Positions 8,099-62,462 of a stretch of 64,000 nucleotides of DNA are shown in pieces; positions within the stretch are counted from its first letter, which is position 1, and the number at the start of each line of letters is the position of its first letter. The notes under the pieces are model-generated. The model saw only the letters and a list, made by a program, of their open reading frames with translations, was not told the origin of the DNA and ran no database searches. This stretch comes from Flavobacterium agri (GTDB taxonomy: Bacteria > Bacteroidota > Bacteroidia > Flavobacteriales > Flavobacteriaceae): the NCBI RefSeq assembly GCF_013401995.1, contig NZ_JACBJI010000001.1, positions 742,905 through 806,904 on the forward strand, in the 5' to 3' direction. The translations under genes and the position numbers were made by a program.

Positions 8099-8247
8099 GC
8101 GAAGCCTTAGCCCGGATAGCAGCGGATAGCCTTTTGAAGAAAAACCGTCGATTTTGTGCGGCTGCGAAGGCGACCGCAGGAAGCCCTTTGCGGGCGTTAC
8201 AAAATAAGGTTTTTCAAGAAAGCTAGCAGCGGGTAGCCGGAATAGCT
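8099..8247 (+). repeat. Long-hairpin intergenic element, copy A
   Basis: About 149 nt that fold end to end. The 5' half contains AGCGGATAGCCTTTTGAA and the 3' half AAGAAAGCTAGCAGCG. The stem includes AAAAACC/GGTTTTT and ATTTTGT/ACAAAAT. Copy B (42004-42151) keeps the outer blocks and the internal GGCGACC and GGAAGCC, but has different, still complementary stem bases. It may be one of the abundant Flavobacterium intergenic structured elements; I cannot confirm which. Its last bases overlap the aroC stop codon. Confidence 0.75.
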
Positions 8248-42003: not shown

Positions 42004-42151
42004 GCGAACCCTAGCCCTGATAGCAGCGGATAGCCTTTTGAAAAAAAGTACTGGTTTTGCAAGACGGTGACGGCGACCAACGGAAGCCGGAAGCGACTTT
42101 TGCAAAACCGTATTTTTTAAGAAAGCTAGCAGCGAATAGCAGGAAAAAGCT
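42004..42151 (+). repeat. Long-hairpin intergenic element, copy B
   Basis: About 148 nt, same plan and same strand as copy A at 8099-8247: AGCGGATAGCCTTTTGAA near the 5' end and AAGAAAGCTAGCAGCG near the 3' end. The inner stem here is GGTTTTGCAA/TTGCAAAACC where copy A has ATTTTGT/ACAAAAT, so pairing is kept while bases change. It fills the gap between the thiolase and NlpC/P60 genes. Confidence 0.75.
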
Positions 42152-55787: not shown

Positions 55788-57293
55788 TTACAACAATTCC
55801 TCCGCAATCCCGAAACTCCTCAAAAACACCTTCGTTTTCTCTATGTCGTAATGCAGGATACGGTCTTCGTTGACGTGCGGAACTTCTTCGCGATATGCCT
55901 TTATGAACGTCTCGATGAACTCGCTCGATTTGAGCGGACGCCTGAAATCCAAGGCCTGTGCGGCGTTCATGAGTTCGATCGCTAAAATCGATTCGAGGTT
56001 GTCTACGACTCTGAGCACTTTCGTTGCGGCGTTCGAGCCCATACTTACATGATCTTCCTGTCCGTTCGAGGAAACGATGCTGTCCGTACTCGCCGGATTC
56101 GCAAGCTGTTTGTTCTGGCTCACGATACTCGCAGCCGTGTACTGAGGAATCATGAATCCGGAATTAAGCCCCGGATTGTCGACCAAAAACGCAGGCAATC
56201 CGCGAAGTCCCGATATGAGCTGATAGGTTCTTCTTTCTGAAATATTGCCTAGTTCCGCCAATGCGATCGCAAGGAAATCCAAAGCCAAAGCAAGCGGCTG
56301 GCCATGGAAATTCCCGCCCGAGATGATCTGGTCGGCATCGATGAAAATGTTCGGATTATCGGTCACAGAGTTGATTTCGGTCTTGAAAACCTTGTGTACG
56401 TACTCGATCGCGTCTTTCGAAGCGCCGTGAACCTGTGGCATGCATCGGAACGAATATGGATCTTGGACGTGCTTTTTCTGTTGTTTTATGATTTCGCTTC
56501 CTTCGAGGAAAACGCTGATGCGCGCTGCCGTCACGATCTGGCCTTTGTGCGGACGTACGGCGTGGATGAGTTCGTTGAACGGTTCTTTGCGCCCGTCGAA
56601 AGCCTCGAGTGAAATCGTACCGATCAAATCGGACAAATAAGAGAGCTTGTTCGCCTTGATGAGCACGTGCGCACCGTAAGCCAGCATGAACTGCGTGCCG
56701 TTCAACAGCGCGAGACCTTCTTTCGACTTCAAGGCGATCGGCTGCCAATTGAAATGCTTGAGCACGTCGGCTGCCTGTTCCTTTTTTCCGTTGTACCACA
56801 CCTCGCCTTCTCCGATCAACGGCAACGACAAATGCGCGAGAGGAGCCAAATCCCCGGACGCACCAAGCGAGCCTTGGTTATAGACGACCGGCAATATGTT
56901 TTCGTTGTAAAAATCGACAAGGCGCTCGACGGTTTCAACCTGAACGCCCGAATTGCCATAGCTCAACGATTGGATTTTGAGCAAAAGCATCAGTTTGACG
57001 ATGTCCTGAGGCACTTCTTCGCCGGTTCCGCAAGCGTGCGACTTGACGAGGTTTTCCTGCAGTTTCGACAAATCAGCGGTATCGATCTTGATGTTGTAAA
57101 GCGATCCGAAACCGGTATTGATCCCGTAAATAGGATCGGTTTGGGAATCCATCTTGTTGTCGAGATATTCGCGGCATTTGCGGATGTTGACCACGGCCTC
57201 TTCTGAAAGCTCGAGTTTTTTATCGGAAGAAATGATTTCTGAAAGTGTATCCAGGTTCAGGATATCGGTGCTGATGTAATGGTGGGTTTCCAT
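55788..57293 (-). CDS. hutH: Histidine ammonia-lyase (HAL/PAL family)
   Basis: This 501-residue enzyme removes ammonia from histidine to give urocanate. The Ala145-Ser146-Gly147 tripeptide of the GSLGASGDLAPL motif forms the MIO cofactor, and Tyr56 in YGINTGFG is the conserved active-site tyrosine. Length is typical. The other hut genes are not here, so another MIO enzyme of the same fold cannot be ruled out. The start is ATG 57293, not the upstream ATG at 57323. A minus-strand TATCTTTA (57331-57338) may be its -7 box. Confidence 0.93.
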   Translation of the reverse strand: METHHYISTDILNLDTLSEIISSDKKLELSEEAVVNIRKCREYLDNKMDSQTDPIYGINTGFGSLYNIKIDTADLSKLQENLVKSHACGTGEEVPQDIVKLMLLLKIQSLSYGNSGVQVETVERLVDFYNENILPVVYNQGSLGASGDLAPLAHLSLPLIGEGEVWYNGKKEQAADVLKHFNWQPIALKSKEGLALLNGTQFMLAYGAHVLIKANKLSYLSDLIGTISLEAFDGRKEPFNELIHAVRPHKGQIVTAARISVFLEGSEIIKQQKKHVQDPYSFRCMPQVHGASKDAIEYVHKVFKTEINSVTDNPNIFIDADQIISGGNFHGQPLALALDFLAIALAELGNISERRTYQLISGLRGLPAFLVDNPGLNSGFMIPQYTAASIVSQNKQLANPASTDSIVSSNGQEDHVSMGSNAATKVLRVVDNLESILAIELMNAAQALDFRRPLKSSEFIETFIKAYREEVPHVNEDRILHYDIEKTKVFLRSFGIAEELL

Positions 57294-57507
57294 TTTAAGA
57301 TTGTTTGGATTCCAAAATTCCACAATGACCTAAAGATACGCAAGCGATTTCGTCGAAACTTTTCAAGACGATCTGAGTCGAAAATTTGCATATCGATAAA
57401 AAATCATCTTTTCGAACCAATAGTTAATTTATTATCGAAACAATTCTTAAAATCAATTCATGATTCTTTAAAAATTTACACAACTTATATCCGAAAGGAA
57501 AAATCCG

Positions 57508-57515
57508 TATTTTTG
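57508..57515 (+). promoter_or_regulatory. Probable -7 box of the thr leader
   Basis: TATTTTTG matches TAnnTTTG. The transcript would start within a few bases of the leader ATG at 57520, so the leader peptide could be almost leaderless. Confidence 0.45.
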
Positions 57516-57519
57516 ACAC

Positions 57520-57606
57520 ATGCCGACAAAATTCACATACACTTCTTCGATCACGGCCTCATGGGTTGCGACTACAGTTGGCACAACCACAACCCTTCGG
57601 GGTTAA
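57520..57606 (+). CDS. thrL: Threonine-rich leader peptide of the thr operon
   Basis: A 28-codon open frame from ATG 57520 to TAA 57604 encodes a peptide with ten threonines, including TTVGTTTT near its end, plus Ser, Ile and Leu. It lies 72 bp before thrA and is followed by hairpins and a T-rich run. This is the classic layout of a leader that senses charged threonyl-tRNA. The gene symbol is used by analogy with enterobacterial thrL. Confidence 0.8.
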   Translation: MPTKFTYTSSITASWVATTVGTTTTLRG

Positions 57607-57648
57607 TCTTTGCACATATCAGCCCTTTTAGGCTCCTTTTTTAAGGAG
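57563..57648 (+). promoter_or_regulatory. Alternative-hairpin attenuator before thrA
   Basis: The segment AACCC (57591-57595) can pair with GGGTT at 57563-57567 inside the leader gene or with GGGTT at 57600-57604 across a TTCG loop. Downstream, AGCC/GGCT (57621-57624 with 57631-57634) is followed by T6 and looks like the terminator. CTCCTT/AAGGAG (57633-57648) overlaps it and could compete. Stalling on Thr codons would favour expression of thrA; this switch is inferred. Confidence 0.65.
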
Positions 57649-57678
57649 TGACTATCCTTTTCCCTTAACATTTTCATC

Positions 57679-60126
57679 ATGAACGTATTGAAATTCGGCG
57701 GGACTTCGGTCGCCAACGCCAACAACATAACACAGGTATGCCAAATCGTGGCCGATAAAAGCAAAGAAGACAAACTGGCCGTGGTCATTTCGGCTTTCAG
57801 CGGCGTTACCGACCTGTTGCTTTCCGCTTCGTTAAAAGCCGCGGCAAAAGACGAATCCTATCGCGAATTGCTTTCCGAAATCGAGAAAAAACACTTCGAC
57901 GCCATTAAAGAATTACTGCCGATCCAACAACAAAGCGCGCTTTTGAGCCATGTAAAACGCATCGTCAACCATCTTGAAACCTTGCTTGACGGTTGTTTCC
58001 TTTTGGGCGAGCGCTCGGCGCGGACTTCGGATACCATAATCGGTTTCGGGGAATTGCTTTCTTCGTGCATCGTGGCCGAAACCTTAAAGCAATCGGTTGC
58101 GAAAAGTACTTACAAAGACAGTCGCGAACTTATCCGCACCGACGACAATTTCGGAAAGGCCAATGTGGATTTTGCAAAGACAAATGTGTTGATCAAGGAA
58201 TATTTCGCTTCGACCGATGCACACGTAATCGTGCTTCCCGGATTCATCGGTTCGTCCGAAAACGGCGACAATACCACGCTCGGACGCGGCGGATCTGATT
58301 ATACGGCCGCCATTCTCGCCTCTGGCCTCAACGCCGATAAACTCGAAATCTGGACCGACGTGAACGGCATGTTTACCGCAAATCCGAAAATCGTGAGGCA
58401 AGCACAACCGATCGCGTCCATTTCGTACCAGGAAGCTATGGAATTGTCGCATTTCGGGGCCAAAGTGCTGTATCCGCCGACGATCCAGCCCGCACTTGAC
58501 AAGAACATCCCAATTTTTATCAAGAACACGTTCGAACCCAATGTATATGGCACATTGATTTCGGCGAATCCGGAGAAATCTCAAAATCCCATAAAAGGCA
58601 TCAGTCATATCGAAGGAATTTCCCTTGTCACGCTTGAAGGTTCGGGCATGATCGGTGTCGCGGGCTCGTCGAAACGTCTGTTCGAAGTTTTATCGGATAA
58701 AGGCATCAACGTCATCTTCATCACCCAGGCGTCTTCGGAACATTCGATTTGCATCGGGATTCTCGACAGCGACTCGGAAAAGGCACAAAAAGCGATCGAC
58801 AACGCATTCGAAACCGAGATCTCACGTCACCGAATTGAGCCGTGTATCGTTGAGAAAGGATTGTGCATCGTAGCACTAGTGGGCGAAAACATGAAAAACC
58901 ATCAAGGTTTGAGCGGAAAAATGTTCAGCACTTTGGGAAAGAACAACGTCAACATCAGGGCTATCGCACAAGGCGCTTCGGAAAGAAACATCTCGGTAGT
59001 CATTAACGAACGCGACGTTAAAAAAGCGCTCAACACGTTGCACGAACGCTTTTTTGAGGACAATACCAAACAGATCAACCTCTTCGTGATGGGCGTGGGT
59101 AATGTAGGCGAGAAATTCCTGGACCAGATCCATCAACAGAAAAAATTCCTCAGGGACAACCTCAAAATCAACCTGCGCGTGATCGCTTTGTCGAATTCGA
59201 AAAAAATGATATTCGACGAAGAAGGTCTCTCGCTCAAGGACTGGAAACAGCAACTCGAAAGCGGTGAAAATGCCGACATCGGCCGCTTTGTACAAAACGT
59301 GAAAACGCTCAACCTGCGCAACAGCATTTTCGTTGACATTACCACGAATCAGCATGTTTCCGACAGTTATCATCAATATCTCGAGGACAGCATTGCGGTG
59401 GTAACCTGTAATAAGATCGCGTGTTCATCGGTTTATGAAAATTATGTCGACCTCAAGAATACGAGCCGGAAATACGGCGCGCCTTTCCTTTTCGAGACCA
59501 ATGTCGGAGCCGGATTGCCGATAATCGATACACTCAAGAACATGGTCGCTTCCGGGGATAAAGTCAACAAGATACAGGCGGTGTTGTCGGGAAGCCTCAA
59601 CTTTATTTTCAATAATTTCGATGGAAATTCAAGTTTTCACGACGTCGTAAAAGAAGCAGGTATTCAAGGTTTTACGGAACCCGACCCGAAAATTGATTTA
59701 AGTGGCGTCGATGTGGCGCGCAAAATCCTGATCCTGATCCGCGAAAGCGGTTACGAGATGGAAATGCACGATATCGAGAACAAATCGTTCCTTCCGAAAG
59801 AATGTCTCGATACCCAATCCGTGCCCGATTTTTTCGTGTCGCTCCTCACCCATGCCAAACATTTTGACGACCTTTATGACCAAGCGAAATCGCAGGATTG
59901 CCGACTCAAATACGTCGCACAGTTCGAAAACGGGAAAGCGGCGGTAGGATTGCAATTCATCCCGAAAGACCATCCGTTCTATAACCTCGAAGGAAAGGAC
60001 AACATCGTTTTGTTTTTCACGGACCGCTATTCGGACCAACCGCTTCTGATTCGTGGCGCAGGTGCTGGTGCGGCGGTTACGGCGAGTGGGATTTTTGCAG
60101 ACGTGATACGTGCCAGCAATAATTAA
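57679..60126 (+). CDS. thrA: Bifunctional aspartate kinase/homoserine dehydrogenase
   Basis: This 815-residue protein carries two steps of threonine synthesis. Residues about 1-460 are aspartate kinase (KFGGTSVANA at 5-14, LGRGGSDYTA) with a pair of ACT domains that bind the feedback inhibitor. Residues about 468-815 are homoserine dehydrogenase (FVMGVGNVGEKF, then GAGAGAAVTASGIFADV at the end). It is the first gene of thrABC and is preceded by the Thr-rich leader. Confidence 0.96.
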   Translation: MNVLKFGGTSVANANNITQVCQIVADKSKEDKLAVVISAFSGVTDLLLSASLKAAAKDESYRELLSEIEKKHFDAIKELLPIQQQSALLSHVKRIVNHLETLLDGCFLLGERSARTSDTIIGFGELLSSCIVAETLKQSVAKSTYKDSRELIRTDDNFGKANVDFAKTNVLIKEYFASTDAHVIVLPGFIGSSENGDNTTLGRGGSDYTAAILASGLNADKLEIWTDVNGMFTANPKIVRQAQPIASISYQEAMELSHFGAKVLYPPTIQPALDKNIPIFIKNTFEPNVYGTLISANPEKSQNPIKGISHIEGISLVTLEGSGMIGVAGSSKRLFEVLSDKGINVIFITQASSEHSICIGILDSDSEKAQKAIDNAFETEISRHRIEPCIVEKGLCIVALVGENMKNHQGLSGKMFSTLGKNNVNIRAIAQGASERNISVVINERDVKKALNTLHERFFEDNTKQINLFVMGVGNVGEKFLDQIHQQKKFLRDNLKINLRVIALSNSKKMIFDEEGLSLKDWKQQLESGENADIGRFVQNVKTLNLRNSIFVDITTNQHVSDSYHQYLEDSIAVVTCNKIACSSVYENYVDLKNTSRKYGAPFLFETNVGAGLPIIDTLKNMVASGDKVNKIQAVLSGSLNFIFNNFDGNSSFHDVVKEAGIQGFTEPDPKIDLSGVDVARKILILIRESGYEMEMHDIENKSFLPKECLDTQSVPDFFVSLLTHAKHFDDLYDQAKSQDCRLKYVAQFENGKAAVGLQFIPKDHPFYNLEGKDNIVLFFTDRYSDQPLLIRGAGAGAAVTASGIFADVIRASNN

Positions 60127-60232: not shown

Positions 60233-61162
60233 ATGGATTACATCAAAATATTCTCCCCCGCTACAATCGCGAACCTTTCGTGCGGTTTCGACGTACTCGG
60301 ACTTTGCCTTGATAATGTCGGAGATGAAATGACGGTTAGGAAAATCGACGAAAAAACCATCCGGATCACCAAAATCGAAGGTGCCGATTTGCCATTGGAA
60401 ACCGAAAAAAACGTTTCGGGCGTCGCAGCTTTGGCCCTACTTCATGAATGGGATACCGACTACGGGTTCGAAATCGAGATCACCAAAAACATAAAAGCCG
60501 GAAGCGGGATAGGAAGTTCGGCAGCCAGCGCGGCAGGCTCGGTTTTCGCGATCAACGAATTGCTCGGCAGGCCGTATGAAAACAAAGACCTCGTAAGATT
60601 TGCGATGCAAGGCGAAAAACTGGCATCGGGAAGCGCACATGCAGACAATGTCGCGCCTGCTTTGCTAGGCGGGATCACGCTCGTGAGAAGCTACGATCCG
60701 CTGGACATCATCAAAATCGAAGCGCCCGAGGAATTATTCGCGACTGTGATCCATCCACAAATCGAGTTAAGGACGGCCGACGCCCGATCGGTATTGAAAC
60801 AACACATCACGTTGCAAAACGCCATTACCCAATGGGGAAACGTGGGCGGTTTCGTTGCCGGATTATACACGAGAGATTACGGCCTTATCGGACGCTCGCT
60901 CCAGGATAAGATCGTCGAACCCATACGCGGCCTTTTGATTCCCGGTTTCGACCGATTGAAAATCGCGTGCCAGACGCAAGGCGCTTTGGGTTCCGGAATT
61001 TCGGGAAGCGGACCTTCTGTATTTGCACTCAGTCGCGGTTTTGAAACGGCTCAAAACGCAGCATCGGCCATGAGCCAGGTATACGACGACATGAAATTGC
61101 CATACGAGATCCATATATCGGGAATCAATCCGGAAGGCATTAAAATCCTTGATAAAAAATAG
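60233..61162 (+). CDS. thrB: Homoserine kinase
   Basis: This 309-residue GHMP kinase phosphorylates homoserine. It has the phosphate loop KAGSGIGSSAASAAG, the N-terminal PATIANLSCGFDVLG and the C-terminal GISGSGPSVFAL. Length is standard. ATG 60233 is favoured over an upstream start at 60212. thrC starts 1 bp after its stop. Confidence 0.96.
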   Translation: MDYIKIFSPATIANLSCGFDVLGLCLDNVGDEMTVRKIDEKTIRITKIEGADLPLETEKNVSGVAALALLHEWDTDYGFEIEITKNIKAGSGIGSSAASAAGSVFAINELLGRPYENKDLVRFAMQGEKLASGSAHADNVAPALLGGITLVRSYDPLDIIKIEAPEELFATVIHPQIELRTADARSVLKQHITLQNAITQWGNVGGFVAGLYTRDYGLIGRSLQDKIVEPIRGLLIPGFDRLKIACQTQGALGSGISGSGPSVFALSRGFETAQNAASAMSQVYDDMKLPYEIHISGINPEGIKILDKK

Positions 61163-61163
61163 C

Positions 61164-62462
61164 ATGCGATACTTCAGTTTACACCACTATTCTCCTAAAA
61201 TCGGTTTTCGCGAAGCCGTCATTCAAGGTTTGGCGCCCGATAAAGGTTTGTATTTTCCTGAAATCATTGCGCCTTTGGATTCCGACTTCTTCGATTCGAT
61301 CGAAACCTTATCGGACTACCAAATCGCGTTTGAGGCGATCCGTCAATTCGTTGGAGACGAAATTCCCGAACACGAACTCAAAAATATCATAAATGAAACG
61401 CTTTCGTTCGATTTTCCGATCATCGAAATCGAAAAGGACGTGTATTCGCTCGAGCTTTTCCATGGGCCGACAATGGCTTTCAAGGACGTCGGGGCGAGGT
61501 TCATGGCGCGCTGCCTCGGCTATTTCAACAGAGAGCGCACACACGCAAGGAACACCGTGCTCGTCGCGACTTCGGGCGATACGGGTGGCGCCGTCGCAAG
61601 CGGATTTCTTGGCGTTCCAGGCGTGGATGTCGTGATTTTGTATCCGAACGGAAAAGTCAGCGACATACAGGAACGCCAACTTACGACGCTGGGCCAAAAC
61701 ATTACGGCTTTGCGCGTGGACGGTGTTTTCGACGACTGTCAGGATATGGTTAAACAAGCCTTCCTCGATAAAGATCTGCAACATTTGAACCTGACATCGG
61801 CCAATTCGATCAACATCGCACGTTGGTTACCGCAAATGTTCTATTTCTTCTTCGCCTACAAACAACTCAAGAAAAGCAGGAAACCGATGGTGGTTTCGTG
61901 CCCGAGCGGCAATTTCGGCAACATTTGCGCAGGCATTCTCGCTAAAAAGTTGGGATTACCGATTTCGCGTTTTGTAGCCGCGACGAACGCCAACGACACC
62001 GTACCGAGATTCCTTGAGAATTGGAAATACGAACCGAAAGCGTCGGTACAGACATTGTCGAATGCGATGGATGTGGGAAATCCGAGCAATTTTATCCGGA
62101 TACGCGAATTGTATGGAGACGACAAGGCGACATTCGAAAAGGAATTCTCGTCTTATGCGTTTTCGGATGCAGAAACCCGCCAAGCCATGAAAAGTGTTTA
62201 TGGAAATTCGGGTTATGTATTGGAACCGCACGGCGCAGTCGCTTATCTGGGATTGAAAAAAGAACTTGAAAAACACCCCGAGTCTATAGGTGTTTTGCTT
62301 GAAACCGCCCATCCTGTAAAATTCATCGACGTCGTGGAAGATGTCTTGGATTTTACACCGCAAATTCCCGATCAAATCTCATCGATTATAGATAAACAGA
62401 AAGTGTTTTCAAACATTTCGTCTTATGAAGAATTGAAAACGCTACTATTAAATAAAAAATGA
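61164..62462 (+). CDS. thrC: Threonine synthase
   Basis: This 432-residue PLP enzyme converts O-phosphohomoserine to threonine. The PLP-binding Lys107 lies in GPTMAFKDVGARF, and ATSGDTGGAVA and SGNFGNICAG bind the cofactor phosphate. The N-terminal MRYFSLHHYSPK matches the type of the family with thrB neighbours. The start is ATG 61164, not the upstream 61149. Its stop overlaps the next start by ATGA. Confidence 0.96.
   Translation: MRYFSLHHYSPKIGFREAVIQGLAPDKGLYFPEIIAPLDSDFFDSIETLSDYQIAFEAIRQFVGDEIPEHELKNIINETLSFDFPIIEIEKDVYSLELFHGPTMAFKDVGARFMARCLGYFNRERTHARNTVLVATSGDTGGAVASGFLGVPGVDVVILYPNGKVSDIQERQLTTLGQNITALRVDGVFDDCQDMVKQAFLDKDLQHLNLTSANSINIARWLPQMFYFFFAYKQLKKSRKPMVVSCPSGNFGNICAGILAKKLGLPISRFVAATNANDTVPRFLENWKYEPKASVQTLSNAMDVGNPSNFIRIRELYGDDKATFEKEFSSYAFSDAETRQAMKSVYGNSGYVLEPHGAVAYLGLKKELEKHPESIGVLLETAHPVKFIDVVEDVLDFTPQIPDQISSIIDKQKVFSNISSYEELKTLLLNKK

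Follow-up and report, generated by a model that had tools for sequence, protein, structure and literature searches.

Leader-peptide attenuation is a textbook case of gene regulation, and its known parts come mainly from proteobacteria. In the window (the whole stretch of Flavobacterium agri DNA that was analysed, 64,000 nucleotides long), a short Thr-rich open reading frame (ORF) stands directly before thrABC. This raises the question of whether a member of the Bacteroidota governs its threonine operon through a leader peptide and, if so, by which step transcription would be turned off. On balance, the leader probably works as a threonine-sensing, thrL-like element that attenuates thrABC according to ribosome position and threonyl-tRNA, with an OFF step that would in most relatives be something other than a canonical intrinsic terminator.

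A threonine leader before thrABC

The operon and the Thr-rich part of its leader are arranged as follows:
57571–57594, forward strand: Thr-rich stretch of the leader ORF, codons 18–25
57679–60126, forward strand: thrA, bifunctional aspartate kinase/homoserine dehydrogenase I (NF006959, 1053.8 bits)
60233–61162, forward strand: thrB, homoserine kinase (NF002288, 397.7 bits; TIGR00191, with the profile run on 60242–61159; start placed by eye)
61149–62462, forward strand: thrC, threonine synthase (TIGR00260, 302.3 bits)

The identities of thrA, thrB and thrC rest on curated profile models, and a divergent hutH (histidine ammonia-lyase) lies upstream of the leader. The leader ORF occupies 57520–57606 on the forward strand, from an ATG at 57520 to a TAA at 57604–57606, and its 28 codons encode the peptide MPTKFTYTSSITASWVATTVGTTTTLRG. 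Ten of them are Thr codons (codons 3, 6, 8, 12, 18, 19 and 22–25), little Ile is encoded, and 72 nt separate the stop codon from the thrA start (57679). The frame described in the sequence-only reading, with 28 codons and ten Thr directly before thrA, is thus present in the sequence. The same is true of the other elements to which that reading pointed, namely AACCC at 57591–57595 with two literal GGGTT partners (57563–57567 and 57600–57604), and the AGCC (57621–57624), GGCT (57631–57634) and T6 (57637–57642) of a proposed terminator.

Judged by Thr count alone, the leader frame is not unique and lies within chance, a density of 6 Thr in 12 codons being reached by 4 of the 958 ORF ends in the window (15–60 aa). 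Folding of the region 57490–57700 is not unusually stable (z -1.1; 31/200 shuffles equally good). An Rfam search across the window at gathering threshold gave no match at the thr leader, and Thr_leader was absent among the matches at E 10 over 57300–57800. Elsewhere in the window, Flavo-1 RNA (Rfam RF01705) was matched twice, at 8105–8247 and 42009–42150.

Relatives were searched at several taxonomic depths. Within the genus, ThrA was searched against 199 genomes and 127 thrA upstream regions were taken among the matches listed (the window's own, 29 loci and 97 further loci), with 12 listed thrA places and 3 five-prime-truncated ones left out. Three more sets reached beyond the genus: 86 upstream regions belonged to other genera of the family, 22 (L284–L306 without L303) to other families of the order, and a further 22 came from the class. 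Distant paralogs (L130–L132) and loci whose start was not located (L206, L221 and L222) were dropped before the counts, and L303, L307–L313 and the genus or family loci L273–L283 were excluded from the order counts.

The Thr-rich frame on which the sequence-only reading had staked its case is kept in these relatives. A Thr/Ile-rich ORF with its stop codon in or beside a GC stem-loop was found in 115 of the 127 genus upstreams and in 51 of the 86 from other genera of the family, compared with 1/381 and 0/258 shuffles of these two sets, which were the only ones shuffled for this test. The same combination occurs in 6/22 upstreams of the order and 6/22 of the class; it was not found in 12/127, 35/86, 16/22 and 16/22 upstreams of the genus, the other family genera, the order and the class, respectively. 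At least 5 Thr in 12 codons are present in 117/127 genus, 33/86 other family and 6/22 order upstreams, the corresponding shuffles giving 6/381, 0/258 and 0/66. The ORF with its stem-loop is lacking at 11 order loci (L284–L294), all from one genus of 0.6 Mb genomes. The Thr leader is therefore real, older than the genus and thinning beyond the family. Because ORF and stem-loop are conserved far above shuffles, a threonine leader peptide before thrABC is well supported at the level of sequence, and the leader is very likely a threonine gauge.

The composition of the run varies among relatives. At L122, L123 and L124, the leader Thr codons have Ser runs beside them (such as TSTSSSSSTSTP), which looks as though serine might be sensed as well. 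At L134–L162 and in other family genera, Ile codons are interspersed among the Thr codons of many leader runs (IIT, TIITP). The leader run of E. coli thrL likewise mixes Ile with Thr, and Ile is made from threonine.

Predicted start and conserved hairpins

Around the leader ORF, the following features were placed:
57508–57515, forward strand: Bacteroidota -7 box TATTTTTG (TAnnTTTG), box position following PMC9723704
57554–57568, forward strand: hairpin P1, CGGCC/GGUUG, lying within the ORF; two of its pairs are G-U, and it is weak in the window; register set by alignment and by eye
57591–57604, forward strand: hairpin P2, AACCC-UUCG-GGGUU, which includes the last Thr codon and extends into the stop codon
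57607–57626, forward strand: G-poor linker with CACATATCAGCCC (in many relatives ACATATAATCC)
57621–57642, forward strand: terminator-like AGCC/GGCT hairpin with T6, foldable in the window and not conserved as such
57633–57648, forward strand: hairpin P3, CTCCTT-TTTT-AAGGAG, not followed by a U-tract in the window

In F. psychrophilum, the -7 box is placed at -12 to -5 (PMC9723704). The motif TAnnTTTG precedes 114 of 117 genus leaders (9.1 expected), and in 111 of the 113 leaders tallied it lies 4–12 nt from the in-frame ATG (4 nt in the window). The corresponding distance in the same genus is 18–36 nt in 23 his leaders, while among ilv frames a box was found in 9/18, at 18–21 nt. From the spacing of 4–12 nt, a near-leaderless thr leader is therefore predicted: 0 to 8 nt would precede the ATG in the genus thr leaders, and none in the window, where the A of that ATG (57520) is the predicted first base of the transcript. 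Leaderless mRNAs make up 5.5% of the set in PMC9723704, and in F. johnsoniae 87% of predicted transcripts have leaders of more than 10 nt (PMC6847099).

The hairpins were followed in two sets of relatives: alignment A1, with 52 representatives below 80% identity drawn from 119 located sequences, and a second set of 84 representatives from 164 located of 213 sequences. P1, which lies upstream of the Thr run, pairs in 83% of A1 cells, and 5/5 tested pairs change on both sides somewhere. P2 (ACCCC..GGGGT in A1) pairs in 96% of cells and is hardly variable; the stop codon of relatives falls in its loop, in its 3' arm or just after it. P3 is conserved in position and differs in stem sequence, with 75–81% of A1 cells pairing and changes on both sides in 4/5 pairs. 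A P3 hairpin was found in 74/84 representatives (p 9e-13), and in 50 it was better than all 8 shuffles; in some genus rows this search was anchored on an earlier GTATA, and the spacings of those rows are not comparable.

Taken together, the 15 pairs of P1, P2 and P3 pair in 86.5% of A1 cells, compared with 32–57% when they are slid, and all three hairpin regions are more stable than shuffles among 85 representatives (P1 p 4e-13, P2 p 1e-15, P3 p 5e-14). Going by the aligned sequences, P1 and P3 are covarying. RNAalifold on the 52-row A1 recovered three P2 pairs and nothing more, and a blind covariation scan of the 84 representatives returned mainly a relatedness signal in which P1 and P3 were not singled out. 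Additional pairings were considered and rejected: CATAT with the next 16 nt failed an energy test against shuffles, and a stem that would enclose P3 (AUCC/GGAU), noticed by eye in a single genus clade, was dropped because other clades lack it.

Between P2 and P3, the linker ACATAT..TCC is G-free in 50/81 relatives, against 7.7 expected. Base content is C 0.26 and G 0.08 in the Thr run, C 0.16 and G 0.03 in the linker, and C 0.12 and G 0.11 upstream of the leader; the low G of the Thr run is largely a consequence of its ACN codons and so partly forced. By eye, the linker motif ACATAT(A/C)AT.C (57614–57624) looks like a direct repeat of a stretch early in the leader ORF (57535–57543). Again by eye, a number of relatives seem to repeat the motif in a similar way, one clade carrying ACATATCATTC in the ORF.

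These features also bear on whether the frame could encode a small protein, or have arisen by chance, and have no regulatory role. The fact that four window ORFs reach its Thr density would be compatible with such a reading; however, the Thr run, P2 and the promoter spacing are kept across genus and family, while the remaining peptide varies. On this comparison, a small protein or chance frame appears largely refuted and is extremely improbable.

Turning transcription off

For the threonine gauge favoured here, we infer ribosome stalling, polymerase pausing, a role for Rho and the direction of control along the following lines. The first transcribed base would coincide with the leader ATG or lie no more than a few bases from it, so that ribosomes would load on an almost bare 5' end. 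The phylum Bacteroidota lacks Shine-Dalgarno sites. P1 would pause RNA polymerase until the ribosome arrives. At low threonyl-tRNA, the ribosome would stall in the Thr run, which it would cover together with the 5' arm of P2, and transcription would continue into thrA. With enough threonine, the ribosome would pass P2, reach the stop codon and leave, freeing the C-containing, G-poor run and the linker, and transcription would end near P3. In most relatives, the OFF step would probably depend on a factor, for which Rho acting at a P3 pause is a guess.

The sequence-only reading had proposed a leader peptide with alternative hairpins. Its Thr peptide before thrABC and the ribosome as likely sensor have stood; its exact switch has not. 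For example, AACCC was said to have two competing partners. The pairing within P2 holds across the 52 sequences of A1, whereas the partner GGGTT at 57563–57567 pairs in relatives at 60.0% compared with 59.6% in shuffles (68.1% and 67.9% in the neighbouring register). This 1:2 pairing was rejected as being at shuffle level, and the GGGTT falls in the local hairpin P1.

A classical trp/thr-type attenuator could nevertheless be drawn from the remaining elements. A ribosome stalled at Thr22 would free GGGGUU (57599–57604) to form an antiterminator with AGCCCU (57621–57626), whereas with a ribosome at the stop codon, or with none, AGCC/GGCT before T6 would end transcription. When the leader in the window was folded under assumed ribosome masks, a kind of check that the sequence-only reading had suggested, the classical states appeared: with Thr22 masked, GGGGUU pairs with GGCUCC in RNA to 57639 or with AGCCCU in RNA to 57660, and AGCC/GGCT forms in RNA to 57639 with the ribosome at the stop (-4.5 kcal/mol) and also without a ribosome. 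However, masking Thr25 still leaves AGCC/GGCT free and it forms there too, contrary to a simple switch.

The alignments divide in a similar way. The 3:4 pairing is kept in 90% of alignment cells, with five double-changed cells (0.7 in shuffles; 0/500 as high), yet the 3:4 hairpin falls short of shuffles in stability (-1.4 vs -2.3) and the 4:5 hairpin is at shuffle level (p 0.62). The window's best hairpin-plus-U score lies above 10/10 shuffles, but the terminator stem has four pairs and shares its GGCT with P3, and a terminator scan of 57200–58000 (stems of at least 5 pairs) lists none. The 3:4 antiterminator (GGGUAUA/UAUAAUCC) with a 4:5 terminator, fine by eye, in the window's folds and in cell counts, was thus rejected on unsupportive energy tests. 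As an account of the leader, the classical attenuator is rather unlikely; the window species itself may use a three-state switch of the classical kind, in which the terminator would be weak.

As a general feature, the proposed terminator was not borne out. Downstream of P2, 48 of the 84 representatives have no hairpin with a U-tract, while a hairpin-plus-U score of at least 10 is reached in 16/84, the window included. The window's own candidate is a weak 4-pair stem with T6, and its GGCT (57631–57634) overlaps the 5' arm of the conserved P3. Exceptions near P3 include real terminators at L211 and L212, weaker ones at L174 and L018, and one recognised by eye at L205, where the hairpin-plus-U scan ranked another hairpin first.

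The his and ilv leaders of Flavobacterium provide a comparison within the genus. Like the thr leader, they encode peptides rich in the product amino acid near hisG or ilvD; in addition to their greater distance from the -7 box, they differ from it in carrying strong hairpins with U-tracts. At least 5 T in 8 at the hairpin end were counted in 15/74 thr P3 hairpins, in 25/25 his frames (all with at least 6) and in 13/13 ilv frames, under the same tail rule but with the hairpin search beginning after the stop codon for his and ilv and after the CATAT anchor for thr, and with his and ilv frames picked by rule (25/26 hisG and 13/24 ilvD loci, some of these fragments). By eye, the His leaders (M..QLHHHH..) in the genus hisG upstreams (L223–L248) end in a canonical terminator, and many of these upstreams have a loop GAGTACATC with a complementary TGTACTC further on as a recurring loop partner. 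In the window's own genome, hisG and ilvD gave no match (contigs may be incomplete), while thrABC and its leader are kept; auxotrophy for His and branched-chain amino acids is possible on this gene content.

Control could also act after transcription, with translation of the leader deciding mRNA cleavage or decay in the ACATAT linker, or the translation of thrA. The linker core is nearly fixed in sequence and is followed by P3, and could thus mark a processing site; to our knowledge, however, no nuclease site fits the ACATAT linker, and in passing no conserved structure caught the eye around the thrA start. The spacing from linker to thrA is also free: the CATAT-to-thrA distance ranges from 64 to 253 nt in the relatives listed, an argument against a structure that would close off the start of thrA. 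Post-transcriptional control is improbable.

Within the attenuation model, two observations favour a factor-dependent end: a U-tract is usually missing from P3, and CATAT and thrA do not keep a set distance. The window's genome encodes rho (TIGR00767, 626 bits). A Rho- or factor-dependent end at P3 remains a guess, to which somewhat less than even weight is given.

Distribution and known counterparts

The covariance model R1 matched 41/61 genus genomes at E 0.05, although many of these genomes contain the model's source sequences and the weakest matches may be chance. Across the class, R1 matched 5/149 genomes at E 0.01 with strict filters, three of them within the genus; the other two matches, in genomes of other families, each lie directly upstream of a thrA. 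Among the 22 class thrA loci, a P2-like appearance was noted by eye at L331, L335, L338, L350 and L351; the first two are also the places of the R1 matches from other families, and L350 may also carry a hairpin with a U-tract. Strong terminators were seen by eye at L340–L342 and L344. At L339 and L343, from another family, a mirrored stop-codon hairpin was noticed by eye (CGGG-stop-CCCG), with the strands of P2 swapped. By these sequences, the class seems to contain both designs.

It is conceivable, if somewhat doubtful, that a second type of threonine attenuator is widespread in the Bacteroidia. Its near-leaderless leader would have the stop codon set in a hairpin, a fixed motif left unpaired would come next and then a hairpin of the pause type, and it would work with neither intrinsic terminator nor antiterminator pairing, alongside his and ilv leaders in the genus that use canonical terminators. 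Within a single genus, two designs seem to be in use: the his and ilv leaders carry canonical terminators, whereas the thr leader, which extends to other families of the class, mostly does without them and is predicted to begin almost at the first base of its mRNA. If true, this would be a natural case, open to direct testing, in which an amino acid is sensed with another kind of OFF step, be it Rho, pausing or decay, and it would add a conserved RNA element that went unrecognised by Rfam in the present searches.

The closest counterpart in function is the E. coli thr operon leader thrL, which we take to be the Rfam family Thr_leader (RF00506). Both have a Thr-rich peptide directly before thrABC and use the ribosome as sensor. 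The window-type leader differs in its predicted near-leaderless start and its stop codon within a hairpin, in the little Ile of the window peptide, and in that a conserved terminator was not found. By eye, E. coli-like Thr/Ile leaders with strong terminators occur in some Bacteroidia outside the order, at L340–L342.

Other systems share parts of the proposed mechanism. In tnaC, expression is decided by a ribosome that stalls on a short ORF, and the mechanism involves Rho. Rho-dependent regulation through a short ORF has also been described for topAI (PMC12121999). As in these systems, ribosome stalling on a short ORF would set expression at the thr leader; unlike them, the thr leader would sense codons for the product amino acid and not a nascent peptide or drug, and Rho is here a guess.

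Within the Bacteroidota, the view of the sequence-only reading that few such switches have been described is fair, but the field is not empty. Clues for leader-peptide attenuation before amino-acid operons come from F. psychrophilum (PMC9723704), likewise a Flavobacterium, whose structured 5' regions include named elements at pheA and hisG, not thrA; the word 'threonine' is absent from the main text of that paper. Leader-like sORFs are mentioned for B. thetaiotaomicron (PMC7366714), and leader genes have been counted by distance in Bacteroidetes among others (PMC4833913). Among the matches listed in open-licence literature, no description of a threonine leader in Bacteroidota was found. A parallel to the predicted near-leaderless start is provided by mycobacteria, in which leaderless short poly-Cys ORFs have been described (Canestrari et al. 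2020, as cited in PMC9031893). Like the thr leader, these are regulatory ORFs with contiguous codons for the sensed amino acid, although the amino acid and the phylum differ.
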